Positions 7,330 through 50,298 of a DNA stretch of 64,000 nucleotides are shown piece after piece. Below the pieces are notes generated by a model. It had not been told where the DNA came from, ran no database searches, and saw only the letters and a program-made list of their open reading frames with translations. The DNA lies in contig OMWK01000020.1 in NCBI GenBank assembly GCA_900314745.1, positions 1 through 64,000 on the forward strand, read 5' to 3'. Source of the stretch: an uncultured Eubacteriales bacterium (GTDB taxonomy: Bacteria > Bacillota > Clostridia > Saccharofermentanales > Saccharofermentanaceae). Positions within the stretch are counted from its first letter, which is position 1, and each line of letters opens with the position of its first letter. Made by a program: the position numbers and the translations under genes.

Positions 7330-7358
7330 ACTATAGATTAACACCCGTTAATTGTCAA
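7330..7358 (-). promoter_or_regulatory. predicted sigma-A promoter of topA-trmFO
   Basis: On the minus strand TTGACA (7358-7353) is separated by exactly 17 bases from TATAGT (7335-7330). That gives a 5' leader of about 31 bases before the topA ATG at 7292. The -35 element lies within the last codons of dprA, so topA can be transcribed independently of the comM-dprA pair. Confidence 0.72.
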
Positions 7359-8555
7359 AACATATTTGCCTTTCTCATTGGCAATACGGCCTTCAATCTC
7401 CAAAGATGTAACAAGAGCCGATAGGTATGAGAAAGGAATTCCGAGCGTAAGACAAAGCTCATCTATGTTCTTTGGCTTCTCAGATAATTCATCAAGGACA
7501 AGCACCTTCCAGTCCTTCTCTTCAAGCCTGTCCGGACACTTCTTCGACAAATCCCGAAGTTCGGATATATTCATGCTGCCTGCATCATACGGAACGGGAT
7601 CATAATCAAAGTATTCTGCCCTGTTTCCTACCTCTCCCCTTATCCTCTCATACACCGTATCGACGTCGATCAGAACTTCGGCTCCGTCCCGCAGAAGCTT
7701 AAGTCCGCCGATGGAGTTCTCCGCATAAATGCTGTTAGGCAGTACAAAGACGTCCCGGCTTTGGGCAGCGGCAAATGACGCTGTATGGAGAGTTCCGCTG
7801 TATTCTCCGGCCTCCATTATCATGCACACATCAGAAAGCGCTGATATAAGCCTGTTTCTTGACGGAAAGTACTGTTTAATTATCTCCTGACCCGGAGGCA
7901 GTTCAGAGAGAACGACCCCGTTCTCACATATCCGGTCATACAGATCATTGTTCTGATACGGATATACGACATCACATCCACCGGGGAGAACGGCAATAGT
8001 CTTCCCTCCCGCATTTATGCATGCTTCATGAGCCTGTCTGTCAATGCCCAGAGCCATACCCGATACTATAACCACACCTTTCGTGCTTAACCTTGACGAG
8101 AATTCCTTGGTTGCATACAGGGCATAACGGCCGGGAGACCTGCTTCCGACTATCGAGGCTCCGCCGTTATGGTCAAGATCACATAATGTCGTAACATCTC
8201 CCTTAACGAAGATAACGCGAGGCATTCCGCTTAAGTTCTTCCAGATATCCGGGTAATACTTTCCGCCATCATATAAGATCCTGATGTCATTTCTGTTAAT
8301 AAGACCTGCATAACGCTCTACCGCACGTTTGACTTTATCCGAGTTCTTTATTGCATCGTCTGTCAAAACCTGTGTCCTCTCACTTAAAGTACATATGGTG
8401 AATGAGTTATTAAGCTCATCAAGGTCCTTAAGATTCGGGAAATAGTATTGAGGGAAAACGCCTTCGCTTATGAATTCCTGCCACACTTTGTAGTCTATTG
8501 ATGTCTCGTGTCTTATTGCCGTGTACTCAAGAAGCCTTAAATCCCGATCGTCCAT
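7338..8555 (-). CDS. dprA: DNA processing protein DprA (Smf)
   Basis: 405 residues. DprA binds incoming single-stranded DNA during transformation and loads RecA. The Rossmann-like core has GSRSPGRYA, SGMALGIDRQAH, VLPGGCDVVYP and FPSRNRLISALSD between about residues 135 and 250. A winged-helix-like C-terminus (about 335-400) is present. The N-terminal 100 residues are more divergent. AAGGGGG lies 8 bases upstream of the ATG. The gene overlaps the end of comM by 29 bases, a common pairing in Clostridia. Confidence 0.95.
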   Translation of the reverse strand: MDDRDLRLLEYTAIRHETSIDYKVWQEFISEGVFPQYYFPNLKDLDELNNSFTICTLSERTQVLTDDAIKNSDKVKRAVERYAGLINRNDIRILYDGGKYYPDIWKNLSGMPRVIFVKGDVTTLCDLDHNGGASIVGSRSPGRYALYATKEFSSRLSTKGVVIVSGMALGIDRQAHEACINAGGKTIAVLPGGCDVVYPYQNNDLYDRICENGVVLSELPPGQEIIKQYFPSRNRLISALSDVCMIMEAGEYSGTLHTASFAAAQSRDVFVLPNSIYAENSIGGLKLLRDGAEVLIDVDTVYERIRGEVGNRAEYFDYDPVPYDAGSMNISELRDLSKKCPDRLEEKDWKVLVLDELSEKPKNIDELCLTLGIPFSYLSALVTSLEIEGRIANEKGKYVLTINGC

Positions 8556-10089
8556 TTACCAGATCCCCCTTCCTGTATATTCCTGCCTCAGCAACATCCG
8601 CTGTCTCCATATCCTCTCTTCCTGCGATATCGGCGATCGTTCTTCCTACTCGAAGAATCCTGTTAAAACCCCTTGCCGAGAAACCGCAGGCTTCCGATAT
8701 CTCGGCTGCGTAATTCACAACTTCCGAAGATGCACGGAAGAGTTCGGCGTCGGCGTTGCAGCATGTTCCGTTAAACACCCCGTCGTTGAACCTTCTTCTT
8801 TGCATATCCCAAGCCTGCTTCACGAGCTGCTTCATCTGCTCATTGATCTTCCTGTCTTCGGCGGAAGCGGATTCCGCCATACTCTTACCTGAGATTGACC
8901 TCATCTCGGCAACCAGATCCAGCCTGTCCCTTATGGGACCTGACAGTTTGGACATGTAGCTGTTGATCACATTAGGCGTACATGTGCATCTTCTTCCGCT
9001 CTCGTAAAGCATTCCGCATCTGCACGGATTACCTGCCGCTACAAATACGAAGGACGCAGGGAAAGCAAAATTGCGGCCGTCCTTGCTCATTCTGACTACA
9101 TGGTCTTCAAGAGGAACTCTTAATGCTTCCAATACTTCCCTCTTATATTCAAATATCTCATCGGCAAAGAGCACACCGTGATTTGCCAGAGCAAATTCTC
9201 CCGGCATGAGTTTGCTCGGTATCCCCAGAATCCTTCCCCTGCTCATCCCGGGGTAGATATACCTGAATGGTCTTCTGTCACTTAATATGAGCCCCTCTTC
9301 CGGATCATCCTTAAGGCCTGCCGCCTCCATTACGGAATAGACATCGCCTATCTCGGAACCCTGAAGCGGCGGAAGTATTCCCGCAAGTATCTTCCCCGCC
9401 ATCGTCTTGCCGCATCCGGGACTTCCAAGAAGCAAAATGTTATGCACTCCTGCCGCTGCGATAAGAAGTGCCCGCACTGCCTTCTCCTGTCCTTTAACCG
9501 CAGAGAAATCAGGAATCTCTTCCTCGTACTCTTCTATGTCATTAAGTGAATAGTTTACGGGCGAATACGAATCACTATCGAAGGCATCGCGGAAAGCTGA
9601 AAGCGAATTCACGGCCGTTGCCGTGAGACACGCGCACCTGGCGGCATCGGTCTCTTCTTCGGGGATGAATACATAATCGTATTCATCCGGAAGCATACGA
9701 AGCCTCATGGCAGCCTGTGGCGTTCCTGCAATCTTGCCGTCGAGCTTGATCTCACCGCTCGAATATATCCTTACATCTTCCGGCACTTGAAGCTGACCGG
9801 AAGCAATGAGCATCCCCAATGCGATCGGCAGATCAAAACCGGTTCCCGATTTTCTAATATACGACGGTGATATGGAAGCGGTTATGTGTCCCTTGGGCAT
9901 GCAAAAACCCGATGACACCAGAGCAGGCTGTATCCTTCCCCGTGACTCCCTTATAGACGAGTCGCAAAGACCGATGACATCGAATGTCGGCAGTCCCGGA
10001 GTTATCGACACCTCGACCTCGGCCGGGACCGGCGTCATACCGTCCATGAAGGACGTGTACACCTTGACTATTCTGACTTTTGAAGCCAT
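8527..10089 (-). CDS. comM: YifB/ComM-family Mg-chelatase-like AAA+ ATPase
   Basis: 520 residues. The N-terminal ChlI-like domain (residues 1-170, with GLPTFDVIGL and the KGHITASISP block) is followed by an AAA+ ATPase with Walker A GSPGCGKTMAGK near residue 220 and Walker B LFADEIFEY near residue 310. A C-terminal Mg-chelatase domain starts near residue 430. ComM is a hexameric helicase that promotes branch migration in natural transformation; many Bacillota carry homologues of uncertain role. The ATG is preceded by AAGGGAGG. It is translationally coupled to dprA. The intergenic region shared with ychF carries Spo0A-like boxes. Confidence 0.92.
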   Translation of the reverse strand: MASKVRIVKVYTSFMDGMTPVPAEVEVSITPGLPTFDVIGLCDSSIRESRGRIQPALVSSGFCMPKGHITASISPSYIRKSGTGFDLPIALGMLIASGQLQVPEDVRIYSSGEIKLDGKIAGTPQAAMRLRMLPDEYDYVFIPEEETDAARCACLTATAVNSLSAFRDAFDSDSYSPVNYSLNDIEEYEEEIPDFSAVKGQEKAVRALLIAAAGVHNILLLGSPGCGKTMAGKILAGILPPLQGSEIGDVYSVMEAAGLKDDPEEGLILSDRRPFRYIYPGMSRGRILGIPSKLMPGEFALANHGVLFADEIFEYKREVLEALRVPLEDHVVRMSKDGRNFAFPASFVFVAAGNPCRCGMLYESGRRCTCTPNVINSYMSKLSGPIRDRLDLVAEMRSISGKSMAESASAEDRKINEQMKQLVKQAWDMQRRRFNDGVFNGTCCNADAELFRASSEVVNYAAEISEACGFSARGFNRILRVGRTIADIAGREDMETADVAEAGIYRKGDLVNGRSGFKAS

Positions 10090-10149
10090 AAAATATCCTC
10101 CCTTATTGTTATTCCTCTATTACGATAGCAAGGTCCCGGGGCGGATAGT

Positions 10150-10186
10150 GGCGACAATTGAGAACAAATTTCGACAACAATCGACA
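10150..10186. promoter_or_regulatory. three phased Spo0A-box-like sites between comM and ychF
   Basis: Heptamers starting at 10150 (GGCGACA), 10170 (TTCGACA) and 10180 (ATCGACA) match the complement of the Spo0A box TGTCGAA with two, zero and one mismatch. They lie 20 and 10 bases apart, on the same helical face. The exact copy covers the putative -35 of ychF. Established: Spo0A dimers bind tandem 0A boxes with 10-base spacing. The link to this site is inference. Confidence 0.5.
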
Positions 10187-44127: not shown

Positions 44128-45193
44128 CAGCGAAGCTTAGCTGCCTCACTCTTAAATGCATCGACGAGGTCGAGCTTCTCCCATGGGAAGCCCTCTTTCT
44201 CTCTTCCGAAATGTCCGTATGATGCTGTCTTCTTGTAGATAGGTCTTCTCAGATCAAGATCCCTGATGATGGCAGCAGGACGAAGATCGCAGACGGAAGA
44301 TACAATATCGGAGATCTTGGAATCATCAATTGCACCTGTTCCGAAAGTATCGATCATTACCGATACAGGACGGGCTACACCGATGGCGTAAGCGATCTGA
44401 ACCTCACACTCCTTGGCAAGGCCTGCCGCAACAACGTTCTTGGCGATATGACGTGCAGCATATGCGGCACTTCTGTCAACCTTCGTCGGATCCTTACCGG
44501 AGAAACATCCACCGCCGTGACGGCCGAATCCGCCGTATGTATCTACGATGATCTTCCTTCCCGTAAGCCCCGTATCACCTGCAGGACCTCCAAGAACGAA
44601 TCTGCCCGTAGGATTGATAAATATCTTCGTGGTGTGGGACCGTCGTACTCTACCGTTACCTGAGACTTTCCGTCAGGGCTTAAGATGCTGGCAGGATCGT
44701 TCTTCCTGACTTCAGCGAGCTTCCTTGTAAGCTTATGCGCGAGAGAAATAGGAAGAGGCATATATTCCGGAGTATCGTCATTAGCATAACCGAACATCAT
44801 GCCCTGGTCTCCTGCACCGATATCAAGCTGTCCTTCTCCTCTTGTCTCAAGAGCATCATTAACGCCCTGGGCAATATCGGGAGACTGCTCATCGATCGAT
44901 GTCATTACAGCGCATGTGTTGTAGTCAAAACTTACGTCACTGCTGTTATAACCGATCTCCTTCAATGTCTCACGGGCAACGCTCGGGATATCAACATAGG
45001 ATGAAGTTGTTATCTCCCCTGCCACGATGATCATTCCCGTTGCAGCAAAAGTCTCGCATGCGACTCTTGCTTCAGGGTCATTGGCAATGATGGCGTCGAG
45101 AACAGCATCCGAGATCTGATCGCATACTTTATCAGGATGCCCCTCAGTTACTGATTCGGAAGTAAAAAGCCACTTACCACTATTTTTCCTCAT
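44127..45193 (-). pseudogene. metK: S-adenosylmethionine synthetase with internal deletion and frameshift
   Basis: The first part (from ATG 45193) is normal Met[27 protein letters not shown] and [14 protein letters not shown]. At about 44630-44640 the frame changes and jumps straight to [10 protein letters not shown]; intact enzymes have roughly 45-50 residues between these two blocks. The second part ([19 protein letters not shown] to the C-terminus) is normal in the shifted frame, ending EAAKLR at 44127. So about 140 bases are missing, not a multiple of three. metK is normally essential and single-copy, so an assembly or sequencing deletion is the leading explanation. Confidence 0.85.
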
Positions 45194-45263: not shown

Positions 45264-45272
45264 CATTCCCTT

Positions 45273-45299
45273 TGTCGTTTTTTGTCGAAAATTGTCGAA
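45273..45299. promoter_or_regulatory. three Spo0A-box-like heptamers at 10-base spacing between metK and the tad locus
   Basis: TGTCGTT (45273), TGTCGAA (45283) and TGTCGAA (45293) read on the plus strand, each exactly 10 bases from the next. The last two match the Spo0A box perfectly. Tandem boxes 10 bases apart are the known Spo0A dimer-binding arrangement. They lie about 10 bases upstream of the metK -35 and about 35-60 bases upstream of a GATAAT (45335-45340) that could serve the tad genes. Which gene is regulated is not decided by sequence. Confidence 0.6.
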
Positions 45300-45370
45300 C
45301 TTTGGTAGGTAAAATCGGCTTTTGAACGCTGTATGATAATTCCAAGAACAGCCAAGAAAGGAATAAGGAA

Positions 45371-46282
45371 ATGGCATTCGGGATAGTAATTTACGAGGAA
45401 GATAATTATCTTTACAAACTCATAAGAGAGCGCCTGTCCTGCGTTTTTCCGGAAGCTTATATAAGACAACCGAACGGCGAGGGCGGCGAGTTCCCGGCTA
45501 TGATCAAGGACATCTACGTAATCTATGACAACAGATCGGACCCTCAGCCTGAAGTTAACGGCACGCATGATCCCATCCCGCTTTTCCAGGACGACGGCAA
45601 AGGGCACATGATCATAGACATGAAGAAGGTTGCAGCATCGATACGAAGCACTGACACCGGTGATGCTTTTACAGCCGGCAGGCTCCAGGATGAATGCAGC
45701 GACAGATTGAGGCTTCTCATATCATATGCCTATATCGACGAGCGTGAGAATTTCATAAGGAACGCTATTGGTCCGGAGACCTTCTCCACGCTTCATCCCA
45801 TCAGAATCGATCTTATGTCAGGAATAAGGATGCCGACTCCCTTTACCTCAGATATGTCAGGTTCAATAACGAAGCTTCTGCGTGCATGCACGAACAGAAG
45901 ATTCCGGCCTGAACACATACTCGGATACATTAACCCGGACAGTTCAGGGTTTCTCTCCTGCGGCAAACCGGATAACGAAGATGACGTATTTGACATAGGG
46001 ATAGACGCATCTGTGAAGCTTATATGTTTACTGAGAGAACTGTGTATAAGGGATAATTCCGGAGCTTTGATAGTGGCAGAAGGATGGAGAGTCGCAGACC
46101 TGACCAAGCTCATCAGTCTGTGCGATACAATTCATCTGCTCCTTCCTGCCAGGATGTGCACAGAAGACACAGGGATAACAAAGGAACTCGGCCTGTTCAA
46201 GCGTTCCCTGTCTTCCGGAGCACTCATGACGGTTCACTACTGTGAGGATTACAGGAACGAATATGAATCAATCAACATTTGA
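45371..46282 (+). CDS. degenerate TadZ/CpaE-like protein of the Tad locus
   Basis: 303 residues. The N-terminus (FGIVIYEEDNYLYKLIRERL) resembles a receiver-like domain of CpaE/TadZ. The later part keeps the pattern of a MinD-type ATPase domain (LLRELCIRDNSGALIVAEGW, SLCDTIHLLLPARM), but no Walker A motif is visible, so it is unlikely to hydrolyse ATP. TadZ positions the Tad machine in the cell. It is the first gene of the Tad operon, with AAGGAAT and AAGGAA just before the ATG. Its 3' end overlaps tadA by 20 bases. Confidence 0.55.
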   Translation: MAFGIVIYEEDNYLYKLIRERLSCVFPEAYIRQPNGEGGEFPAMIKDIYVIYDNRSDPQPEVNGTHDPIPLFQDDGKGHMIIDMKKVAASIRSTDTGDAFTAGRLQDECSDRLRLLISYAYIDERENFIRNAIGPETFSTLHPIRIDLMSGIRMPTPFTSDMSGSITKLLRACTNRRFRPEHILGYINPDSSGFLSCGKPDNEDDVFDIGIDASVKLICLLRELCIRDNSGALIVAEGWRVADLTKLISLCDTIHLLLPARMCTEDTGITKELGLFKRSLSSGALMTVHYCEDYRNEYESINI

Positions 46283-47465
46283 TATATCCGAGATCAAGGA
46301 GAAGCTGATATATTACGTTCTTAATGCCTTGAGAGATGAGTCCGATCCGTCTGATGACAGACTTAAGGAGATCATCTCGGAGATAATCGGAATGGACAGC
46401 AGCACTGCCACTCTTCCTCTCGAGAGCAAAAGAGAACTGGCACTAAGCGTATTCAACAGCTTAAGGCGCCTTGATGTCATAGAACCCCTGATGGAAGATC
46501 CGTCCATTACGGAGATTATGGTCAACGGACCTGATAAGGTCTTCTACGAACGCGGAGGAAAGCTTCATAAGACCGACATCAAATTCAAGGATGCCGACTC
46601 ACTTAAGACAGTAATATCCTGCTTCTTCGCGAACAGGAACAGGCCGCTTAACGAAGCCAATCCGATATCGGACTTAAGGCTTCCGGACGGTTCAAGAGCA
46701 AACTGCGTCCTTCCGCCTGTCGCCCCGGACGGCCCGATAGTCACGATAAGGAAATTCACGGGCATATCCCACGACATAGTCACGTTGATAAGGCAGGGAT
46801 TCATAAGTGAGGAAGCAGCGAGATTTCTATGCGACTGCGTAAGGAACAAGAAGACGATATTTCTCTGCGGCGGAACAGGATCCGGTAAGACAACTTTCCT
46901 TAATACATTATCGGGATTTATCCCTTCGGATGAGCGAGTAGTAACCATCGAGGATTCGGCAGAACTCAACCTTCAGGGAATAGACAATCTCGTACGAATG
47001 GAAGCAAGGCTGCCGGGTCCGGACGGAAGCGGCGAGGTGAACATCGGCATGATGATCAGGGCTGCACTTCGAATGCGCCCTGACCGGATAATCGTAGGCG
47101 AAGTCCGAGGTTCCGAGAGCGCCGATATGATGCACGCACTTAACACAGGGCACCGCGGCAGTCTCTCTACCGGCCACGCGAATTCATGCATCGAGATGCT
47201 CGAGAGACTAACGGGCATGGTCATGGCGGGATCTTCCCTGCCCTATAACGCTATCATGACCCAGCTGTCCATGGGCATCGACATAATCATTCACATAACA
47301 AGAGACAGGAACGGCAAAAGATATATAGACGAGATCTGCTCAGTCCTTCCCGCGAGAGGCAAGGACTTTAATCTTCTCAAGCTGTTCATAAACGACGGAG
47401 GCAAAGGCTGTGAACGGGTCTGTACTGATTCAGAACTTAAAGACACGTGTGAATATAAAGGATGA
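46263..47465 (+). CDS. tadA: TadA/CpaF-family secretion ATPase
   Basis: 400 residues from the ATG at 46263 (7 codons after the longest open start, chosen for AGGA spacing). Walker A LCGGTGSGKTTFLN near residue 205, VVTIEDSAELNLQG near 234, the Asp-box and arginine region with LRMRPDRIIVGEVRGSESADM near 275-295, and the HAN box TGHRGSLSTGHANS near 303. Powers assembly of Flp pili. It overlaps the downstream TadBC gene by 56 bases. Confidence 0.95.
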   Translation: MNQSTFDISEIKEKLIYYVLNALRDESDPSDDRLKEIISEIIGMDSSTATLPLESKRELALSVFNSLRRLDVIEPLMEDPSITEIMVNGPDKVFYERGGKLHKTDIKFKDADSLKTVISCFFANRNRPLNEANPISDLRLPDGSRANCVLPPVAPDGPIVTIRKFTGISHDIVTLIRQGFISEEAARFLCDCVRNKKTIFLCGGTGSGKTTFLNTLSGFIPSDERVVTIEDSAELNLQGIDNLVRMEARLPGPDGSGEVNIGMMIRAALRMRPDRIIVGEVRGSESADMMHALNTGHRGSLSTGHANSCIEMLERLTGMVMAGSSLPYNAIMTQLSMGIDIIIHITRDRNGKRYIDEICSVLPARGKDFNLLKLFINDGGKGCERVCTDSELKDTCEYKG

Positions 47466-48960
47466 TCCGCTAAGGTTATTCCTCATAAGGAACATATGGG
47501 TATATCCGGTATTCGTTATCGTCATCTATTCGATATCCTCATTCTTCATAAGCGGAATGATACCGAGACTCACAGGAAGCATAATCCTGGGATTCTTCCC
47601 GTGGAAGGAACTCATGAAGAAGATATTCTCAGGCAATTACAAGCATATGAGAACACAGCTTCTGATCATGCTTCAGGTTCTTACGACAAGCGTCAGCAGC
47701 GGATACTCCATCGAGAGATCGCTGACGCTTATAAGGCCTGTGATTGAGCATTCATTCGGAAGCAGAAGTGTTCTTATCAAACCGCTGATAACACTCGAGA
47801 ACAACATCAAGGTACATATGAATCTTGATAAGGCGCTGGATATTTTCTCCAAGGAACTGAACTTTCCTGAGACGATACCCATCTTTCACGCGCTCGCCAT
47901 ATCATCTGACATCGGCAACAACAGCCTTGCGATACTAAGAAGCAGCTGTCAGATGCTGTCGGAAATGAACGCAGTACAAAATGAGATAAACGCCGCTAAT
48001 GCGGGCAAGAACGCGGAAGCTGTGATGCTTTGCATCATGCCGTTCGTAATAACCGCGGCGCTGGACAGAATGGGAGGCAATTACCTCGAGACTGCAAGGG
48101 CATCACGGACGGGTTCTATCATACTTATCGCTGCTTTTTCAGTCGCTATCCTCGCTTCTGCCCTTCTGTTCAGATTCATGACGCACTCCGAGAAGGTAAA
48201 GAAATCATCAGAACTCGAACAAAGACCCGTCGACTCATCATCCGAGAAGCTGATGCTTACCGAGCTTCTTAAGAAAGTTATGCCTTCGGGATTCATAGCA
48301 TCGAGACACGAGATATTCAACGAACTGTCGATTGATCCCAAGCATGCATATGAAACATATCTACGTAAACAGGTAATTATCTGCTCAACAGTCTTCGTAA
48401 TGTCCTTATTGGTTCTGTACATAGCAGGAATAAAACTTCTCTTCAGTCCGCTTCTGACAATCACAGTAGCCGTTCTCGGAGCATACGACATAAGACGGGA
48501 GGCTGAACTTCGAAGAGAAGATCTGATGAGGGACATGCCATTATTTCTGTGCCTCATAACGACTCTTCTTGAAGCAGGACTTCAGCTTCCCAAATCAATT
48601 GAAATATGCTCATATGCCTTCAAGGAAAGCAACAGCCTGTCTTCCGAGATACGCAATCTTCGGGCCATGATGCTAAGCGGAATGACAGCCTCGGATGCGG
48701 TAGACAGACTTTCCTTAAGGATACAGATACCGGAAGCCCAGTCTGCGCTCCTTCTGGTCGCAAGATACGGAAGACTGGGAACATCCGAGGTATTGGGACT
48801 TCTAGGTCTTCAGGCTTCAGCCTGCTGGAACCTTTGCAGGAACGCTGCAAGAAAGAAACAGGAACGCGAAGCATTAGGCCTTCTGTTCCCCATGACACTC
48901 GACTTCGTATCAGTGCTCATGGTCGCTACAACACCGGCAATAATCTCTCTGGGTATATAA
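47410..48960 (+). CDS. TadB-TadC fusion, inner-membrane platform of the Tad pilus
   Basis: 516 residues holding two T2SF-type modules. Residues about 75-225 (TadB-like) are flanked by helices at 22-38, 46-60, 200-216 and 232-252. Residues about 345-500 (TadC-like) follow helices near 315-360 and end in a hydrophobic pair near 490-515. Elsewhere TadB and TadC are separate genes. The GTG start at 47410 is supported by GGAGG 8 bases upstream, although it overlaps tadA by 56 bases. The AUG-free start and coupling suggest that TadBC is limiting relative to TadA. Confidence 0.85.
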   Translation: MNGSVLIQNLKTRVNIKDDPLRLFLIRNIWVYPVFVIVIYSISSFFISGMIPRLTGSIILGFFPWKELMKKIFSGNYKHMRTQLLIMLQVLTTSVSSGYSIERSLTLIRPVIEHSFGSRSVLIKPLITLENNIKVHMNLDKALDIFSKELNFPETIPIFHALAISSDIGNNSLAILRSSCQMLSEMNAVQNEINAANAGKNAEAVMLCIMPFVITAALDRMGGNYLETARASRTGSIILIAAFSVAILASALLFRFMTHSEKVKKSSELEQRPVDSSSEKLMLTELLKKVMPSGFIASRHEIFNELSIDPKHAYETYLRKQVIICSTVFVMSLLVLYIAGIKLLFSPLLTITVAVLGAYDIRREAELRREDLMRDMPLFLCLITTLLEAGLQLPKSIEICSYAFKESNSLSSEIRNLRAMMLSGMTASDAVDRLSLRIQIPEAQSALLLVARYGRLGTSEVLGLLGLQASACWNLCRNAARKKQEREALGLLFPMTLDFVSVLMVATTPAIISLGI

Positions 48961-48981
48961 CGAATAAAGGAGGATTGGAAT

Positions 48982-49155
48982 ATGCGGATATTTGATGTCA
49001 GAAACAAACGCGGCATGGGAACCGTGGAAATCGTCATCATCATAGCTGTACTGGTAGCACTTGCTCTTATATTCCGTGAAGGACTTACAAGATATGCAAG
49101 CAACGTTATGCAGTATGTATTTGATGAAGGCCGTGTTACCGGAGCGTTCGGCTGA
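48982..49155 (+). CDS. flp: Flp1-family type IVb pilin
   Basis: 57 residues, preceded by an excellent AAAGGAGG 8 bases before the ATG. A basic leader (MRIFDVRNKRG) ends in the prepilin-peptidase site G|MGTVE, which places Glu at position +5 as in type IVb pilins. A single hydrophobic helix (IVIIIAVLVALALIF) and a short amphipathic tail follow. This is the major pilin and lies directly after the TadBC gene. No prepilin peptidase (TadV/CpaA) gene or TadE/F pseudopilin gene is in the window, so processing must rely on genes elsewhere. Confidence 0.88.
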   Translation: MRIFDVRNKRGMGTVEIVIIIAVLVALALIFREGLTRYASNVMQYVFDEGRVTGAFG

Positions 49156-49185: not shown

Positions 49186-50298
49186 ATGGAAATTAGAAAA
49201 GGTCCCTACGGACATTATGCTGTCAGAAAGATTGAAGACATAGACTCTATACACGACTATACCCGGAAGATCGTTGCAGAAAACATTCTGGGTCATATGC
49301 TTCCGCTGTACATAATCCCGACAATGGACCATTATGAAGCATCATATGATTTTTCAGGGCTTACGTCTCTCTTTCATACATCTAACCAAAACAATAATCC
49401 AAACAAGCTTCGTAAGGCCATTGGGGACCTTCTCTATTTCTTGTCCGGTCTTCCAGACTACCTTCTATCCCCCGCTTCGGTACTCTTGGATATCAACTAC
49501 ATATTCACGGACGAGGATTATTCCGAACTTAAGGTATGCTTCGATCCGGTCAAAGTACCGCCCGAATACCTGAATATAGGTTCAATATCCAAAACAGAGG
49601 TTAAAACCTTTCTTAATTCGGATATCGTATCCGCGGCCGTATCACCCTCGGAAACAGACAGTGTCATATATGCCATTGAACAGAACGATCCGGAACTTCT
49701 CAGGAAAGCCGCCGACGTGATAAGAACTCCTGTTGAGAAGGAGAAGAAACAGCCTGAATTACTGGAGAACAATGAATTCAAGATGATCATTCTCCTAAGC
49801 ATAATTTCACTTATCTTCGCGATAACCAAGCTCACCGTTCTGTCGCTTATATCTGAATCATTAGTCTTATTCTTCTCTTACAGATTATGGAAAACTCTTA
49901 CGAACAAGCCTGAGATAACAGTGCCGCACACTTTGGAGAACACCAAGAAACAGATGCTCTTCGGTGATGAGTCGGAAATCTGCCGCGGACTTAATGCCGT
50001 CATACTGTCAAGCCGTGACCCCGCTACCAACCAAGATGACAAGAAAGCTATCTATACTGATGACGCGGTGATCGGTTCAGACAGATTTCTGTGCGACATA
50101 TTTACTCCCGATAAAGGAATCTCGCCTATGCACGCGAGGATCAAGAAATCGGGAAGAACCTATTATGTCAGCGACTTATCTTCGGATAATTCAACTTTCC
50201 TGAATGACATGAGACTTGATCCCGGCAGAGACTACGAGATCAAAAGCGGTCAGTCACTCATATGCGGAAACAGGGAGTTTCAGATAGAGATAATCTGA
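49186..50298 (+). CDS. FHA-domain protein of the Tad locus (DUF6382-like N-terminus)
   Basis: 370 residues. The N-terminal domain (residues 1-165) resembles the region found with FHA domains in Clostridial Tad loci (DUF6382-like, uncertain). Two transmembrane segments lie near 203-235, and a C-terminal FHA domain spans about 295-370 with GSDRFLCDI, SPMHARIKKSG and YYVSDLSSDNSTFLND, which binds phosphothreonine. The PP2C phosphatase at 1944 could act on such sites, but no kinase is in the window. It ends directly at the convergent atpC stop. Confidence 0.7.
   Translation: MEIRKGPYGHYAVRKIEDIDSIHDYTRKIVAENILGHMLPLYIIPTMDHYEASYDFSGLTSLFHTSNQNNNPNKLRKAIGDLLYFLSGLPDYLLSPASVLLDINYIFTDEDYSELKVCFDPVKVPPEYLNIGSISKTEVKTFLNSDIVSAAVSPSETDSVIYAIEQNDPELLRKAADVIRTPVEKEKKQPELLENNEFKMIILLSIISLIFAITKLTVLSLISESLVLFFSYRLWKTLTNKPEITVPHTLENTKKQMLFGDESEICRGLNAVILSSRDPATNQDDKKAIYTDDAVIGSDRFLCDIFTPDKGISPMHARIKKSGRTYYVSDLSSDNSTFLNDMRLDPGRDYEIKSGQSLICGNREFQIEII

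Follow-up and report, generated by a model that had tools for sequence, protein, structure and literature searches.

The TTGTCG repeats that precede the tad pilus operon of a Saccharofermentans genome are probably the activator operator of a natural-competence and Tad-pilus regulon, for which a short Spo0A-like protein is the candidate binder. The case for membership of the tad site in such a regulon is strong, and it is carried by the position of the repeats, by their recurrence before competence genes and by their conservation in relatives.

The phased boxes and their position before tad

The window, i.e., the whole 64,000-nucleotide stretch analysed here, belongs to a genome of 2.28 Mb that is 99.9% complete. 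On its plus strand, TGTCGTT begins at 45273 and TGTCGAA at 45283 and 45293, a spacing of exactly 10 bases. The three 10-base-phased Spo0A boxes of the original prediction were thus confirmed at their exact coordinates, and the Spo0A-type tandem geometry was borne out by 10-bp TGTCG units, although the match to the Spo0A box is perfect in two units and only 5/7 in the first; the common core is TTGTCG. The features of this site, and of a second one in the window, are as follows:

45272..45297, plus strand: operator of three TTGTCG units, 10-bp period, aimed at the tad operon; position kept in 32/34 relatives
45303..45316, plus strand: putative degenerate fourth/fifth unit, TGGTAGGTAAAATC, judged from aligned sites; class A sites of the genome are similar
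45332..45337, plus strand: predicted -10, TATGAT, 34 bp past the last TGTCG and 24 bp past degenerate unit 4
45371..46282, plus strand: first tad gene, 303 aa, putatively CpaE-like, judged by its position and its N-terminus; matched no Pfam family
46242..47465, plus strand: tadA/cpaF motor ATPase (T2SSE match)
47410..48960, plus strand: tadB/tadC-like platform protein, probably fused (weak T2SSF match)
48979..49155, plus strand: Flp pilin (Flp1_like match)
49186..50298, plus strand: DUF6382-FHA protein of the tad operon (domain match)
44357..45193, minus strand: metK, divergent neighbour, judged not to be a target; frame broken in this assembly
10152..10186, minus strand: operator TGTCG-TGTCG-TGTTC-TGTCG, 10-bp period, aimed at comM-dprA
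10122..10127, minus strand: predicted -10, TATCGT, exactly 24 bp past the last TGTCG
8527..10089, minus strand: comM (Mg_chelatase and ChlI domain matches)
7338..8555, minus strand: dprA, overlapping comM in the same operon

With at most two mismatches allowed, TGTCG-N5-TGTCG-N5-TGTCG matched the window three times, compared with 0.10 expected in shuffles, and the two matches outside the tad site form the single four-unit site before comM. The named relatives are Saccharofermentans and allied MAGs and isolates from rumen and gut. Of their 34 testable loci, 32 carried two or more phased boxes within 160 bp upstream of the tad start, which upholds the proposed link to the pilus operon. Controls for the 34 loci yielded 2 hits in 6,800 shuffles and none in 30,868 other windows of these loci.

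The original prediction had also offered metK, and with it SAM supply, as a target. metK is the usual divergent neighbour of tad in the relatives' loci; however, the boxes face tad and remain at a constant distance from it while metK moves away, from ~170 bp to 450 bp and, in one locus, to 6 kb. Since metK was also the driven gene at none of 40 operator sites fetched from relatives, it was rejected as the operator's target. As a separate observation, metK of the window lacks approximately codons 196-228 relative to L078, with a change of frame at 44600-44640 (minus strand), reflecting either an assembly deletion of ~100 bp or a real pseudogene.

One operator before competence, pilus and predicted nuclease genes

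A pattern search for exact pairs or triples of the box located about 13 operator sites in the genome of the window. As anticipated, these cluster at promoters: they fall between genes and have a direction, the boxes reading towards a start codon that is mostly some 45-130 bp away. Their targets include the tad operon, a second Tad locus (TadE/TadG-like), comM-dprA, comEC, recA, four paralogous nuclease-like proteins (L003, L010, L013, and L015), a small hydrophobic peptide (L004) and a small helical protein (L005). Toxin-antitoxin-like genes stand behind two sites (L001 and L019), which we counted against a competence reading, and comG was not found among the targets of the sites examined. One-mismatch TTGTCG pairs in the same genome were discarded as operators, since those examined sit within reading frames and represent background; a DNA uptake sequence was set aside, by inference, since the sites are small in number and confined to promoters in intergenic DNA.

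Across 40 related genomes, the exact triple occurred 90 times in 22 genomes, while the reversed control pattern did not occur, so that the tandem is not equally frequent in control sequence. The spacers are rich in T, as an origin by chance or in low-complexity T-rich sequence would have it. Considering the counts of 3 versus 0.10 in the window, 90 versus 0 for the reversed pattern, and 32/34 orthologous promoters versus 2/6,800 shuffles, that origin was rejected and its probability is negligible. The 40 sites surveyed for their targets came from eight relative genomes. Genes for comM (2), comEA (6), comEC (2), recA (1), the CpaE-like first tad protein (7) and TadE-like proteins (6) lie behind 24 of them, the nuclease family behind 12 and other genes behind 4. 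One operator is therefore shared by comEA, comEC, dprA/comM, recA and the putative uptake pilus, which is the mark of a competence regulon. The programme under its control would be DNA uptake and recombination, which the original prediction had not proposed.

The operator also occurs beyond the genus, upstream of comEA and comEC in family f3 and of tad genes in another order. Otherwise, the stricter pattern was almost absent from 391 sampled genomes of the class. A genome of another order (G166) encodes a Spo0A that is divergent and whose receiver is degenerate (L178) and carries four phased TGTCG units at its tadA promoter (L159); with both in one genome, a link between Spo0A and tad may predate the order studied here. 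At the tad promoter in L080:9850-10000, five 10-bp-phased TTGTG units replace TTGTCG.

The box core in the genus is TTGTCG, the final AA of TGTCGAA being free, and the spacers are T-rich. Class A sites consist of three TTGTCG units followed by TTTGGTAG, and class B sites of TTGTCG, TTGTCG, TTGTTCTCAA and TTGTCG; with the degenerate unit counted as a helix turn, the distance from the end of either class to a TATAAT-like -10 is 24 bp. A -10 matching in at least 5/6 positions stood exactly 24 bp past the last TGTCG at 36 of 110 distinct genus sites. The next peak, at 34 bp, comprised 9 sites, a spacing of 23 bp comprised 8, and most other spacings 0-3.

The nuclease paralogs share the motifs RSxxE, (P)DF and E-x-x-G, with E143, D174 and E189 invariant, and a Pfam search assigned them to no family. 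Their structural model (pLDDT 90) matched mainly restriction-endonuclease-like folds (Bax1, Z 8.6; TnsA, Z 8.0; Hjc; Vsr). The modelled fold, together with the conserved acidic residues, would place these regulon members among PD-(D/E)XK nucleases, whose role here may be to process DNA entering the cell or to screen it. Two other groups of small proteins were noted at operator sites. Peptides of ~28 aa, such as MEEMIKSLIISIVAGVIAYYICKWLDRE, lie directly downstream of sites in L129, L050 and L004; they resemble holin-like type I toxins, and competence-linked lysis or killing is possible. A small helical protein family (L005:1622-2068, L128, L070, and L153) is a recurrent target with no Pfam match; distant members matched by BLAST at E 4e-9, and the start of the L005 member is masked.

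A Spo0A-like candidate and competing regulators

The genome of the window yielded no match to PF08769 at E<=0.001 or even at E<=10, and canonical Spo0A was therefore rejected as the regulator; SpoIVA was detected in 0/40 genomes of the order. A protein with a divergent Spo0A effector domain is nevertheless encoded in this genome, in partial agreement with an expectation of spo0A. Such Spo0A-like proteins occur in 57/59 genomes of the order, nearly always in single copy, and those of relatives are about 190-220 aa long, with a short N-terminal part followed by a Spo0A-type effector domain. The Spo0A_C Pfam model matched them weakly in 12 of 17 genomes tested and missed the member in the genome of the window, a protein of 185 aa (G000:C5:144286-144819) that was recovered with an alignment of the relatives' proteins as query (E=8e-40). 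In the two remaining genomes, G006 and G021, the adjacent fthC is missing as well, and the regulator locus is therefore probably missing from these assemblies. Still, G006 has 7 operator sites with the protein undetected, which we counted against its role, as we did the finding that no operator was detected before the Spo0A-like gene itself.

A profile of the family matched Spo0A of PDB 1FC3/1LQ1 at E=2e-12. In an AlphaFold2 model, most C-domain residues had a pLDDT of around 95; across 97-98 residues, this domain aligned to Spo0A at Z 13.6 and 13.1 (next fold, 5.7), and the top Foldseek match was 1LQ1. The N-terminal 75 aa were modelled with low confidence, and the fold match is confined to the C-domain. 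An intact receiver would span about 120 aa, while only ~75 aa precede the effector domain here, with no Pfam receiver match; D20, G35, G44 and D51 are conserved in this part. The E-R-x-x-R positions of the recognition helix are preserved, E143 being nearly invariant and R144 and R147 invariant, and, counted along the profile alignment, they align with E213, R214 and R217 of B. subtilis Spo0A, of which we take E213 and R214 to be base-contacting. On the DNA side, the box positions conserved in the genus coincide with G2, C4 and G5 of TGTCGAA, the bases that Spo0A touches (PMC3485338). In L080/G440, whose arrays are of TTGTG, the helix reads YHTIER, with T for the Q of the xxQxER helices aligned beside it; in further members of the family, however, H or K at that position goes with TTGTCG boxes. 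This co-change of helix and box is one case and suggestive only.

The same regulon might instead, or in addition, be bound by an OmpR/PhoB-type response regulator, e.g., one encoded near the Spo0A-like gene; this is a serious rival, although we consider it unlikely. Members of the OmpR family use direct repeats about one turn apart, as in the WalR box TGTWAH-N5-TGTWAH (PMC4168254). In the genome of the window, the neighbourhood of the Spo0A-like gene encodes an OmpR-type response regulator and a histidine kinase of 718 aa (L230:6271-9152, minus strand), and a kinase fragment adjoins the Spo0A-like gene in L183-L185. However, the conserved core consists of the bases contacted by Spo0A, the WalR period is 11 rather than 10, and families f3 and f4 possess the operator while the examined 1.5-kb flanks of their Spo0A-like gene contain no kinase.

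A part in an alternative sigma factor promoter, rather than in an activator site, would account for the fixed distance to the -10 and for the directional use of the repeats. Since the -10 is sigma-A-like and the units vary from 2 to 5 at a fixed -10 spacing, as in a tandem activator site, this explanation is very improbable. The reading first given to the boxes, that phosphorelay-driven Spo0A couples the pilus or SAM supply to sporulation or stationary phase, agrees with box sequence and spacing and with the confirmed tad side. Against it stand the absence of canonical Spo0A and of SpoIVA, a candidate protein without a full receiver domain, and the exclusion of metK; it is largely refuted and scarcely credible as a whole. 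With sporulation genes and intact Spo0A missing, the tie to developmental state found no support. We retain the short Spo0A-like protein as the candidate binder.

Proposed mechanism and comparison with known systems

Under the mechanism that we propose, the 185-aa Spo0A-like protein would bind three to five head-to-tail TTGTCG units, one per helical turn and on one face of the DNA. Beside a poor -35, the bound regulator would recruit sigma-A RNA polymerase to the TATAAT-like -10 located 24 bp past the last unit. The variable number of units, the fixed -10 spacing and the unclear -35 together suggest that an activator assembles as a polymer extending in the direction of RNA polymerase. The tad pilus, comEA/comEC import, dprA/comM/recA strand handling and recombination, and the predicted endonucleases would be switched on jointly. 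From these sequence comparisons we infer binding by the Spo0A-like protein, activation, DNA uptake by the Tad pilus and transformation itself. Transformation of Micrococcus luteus requires Tad genes, and in Liberibacter crescens such genes are implicated in the uptake of DNA (PMC8513845); by this analogy, a role for the Tad pilus as DNA-uptake pilus is plausible, not proven. We give an even chance to the broader view that loss of sporulation freed Spo0A to become a receiver-less master activator of competence, running a Tad uptake pilus and a new nuclease family through variable TTGTCG arrays.

If correct, these proposals would predict natural transformation, together with its switch and its pilus, for abundant rumen Clostridia, place Tad pili within a competence regulon of Clostridia, and provide a clear example of a master regulator of development that was put to new use once its programme had been lost. 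A means of turning the regulon on would give a genetic handle on these rumen bacteria. Our literature search found no paper naming both Saccharofermentans and Spo0A, and no prior account.

The system resembles Spo0A and the tandem 0A boxes of Bacillus and Clostridioides in its TGTCG(AA) core, 10-bp tandem and sites upstream of sigma-A-type promoters, and in a homologous effector domain whose recognition-helix positions are conserved. It differs in that the receiver is not intact, sporulation genes are absent, the targets are competence and Tad genes, each site has more units, and the AA of TGTCGAA is not conserved. Like the regulons of ComK in B. subtilis, ComX/SigX in streptococci and SigH in Lactobacillus sakei, it would join comEA, comEC, dprA, recA and an uptake pilus under one regulator class; however, operator and regulator differ, the regulon includes Tad instead of the ComG pilus, and predicted nucleases are added. 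With the Tad-dependent transformation of M. luteus and L. crescens it shares the tie between Tad pilus and DNA uptake, which is genetic and phenotypic in those organisms, whereas in Clostridia it is proposed from a shared operator.
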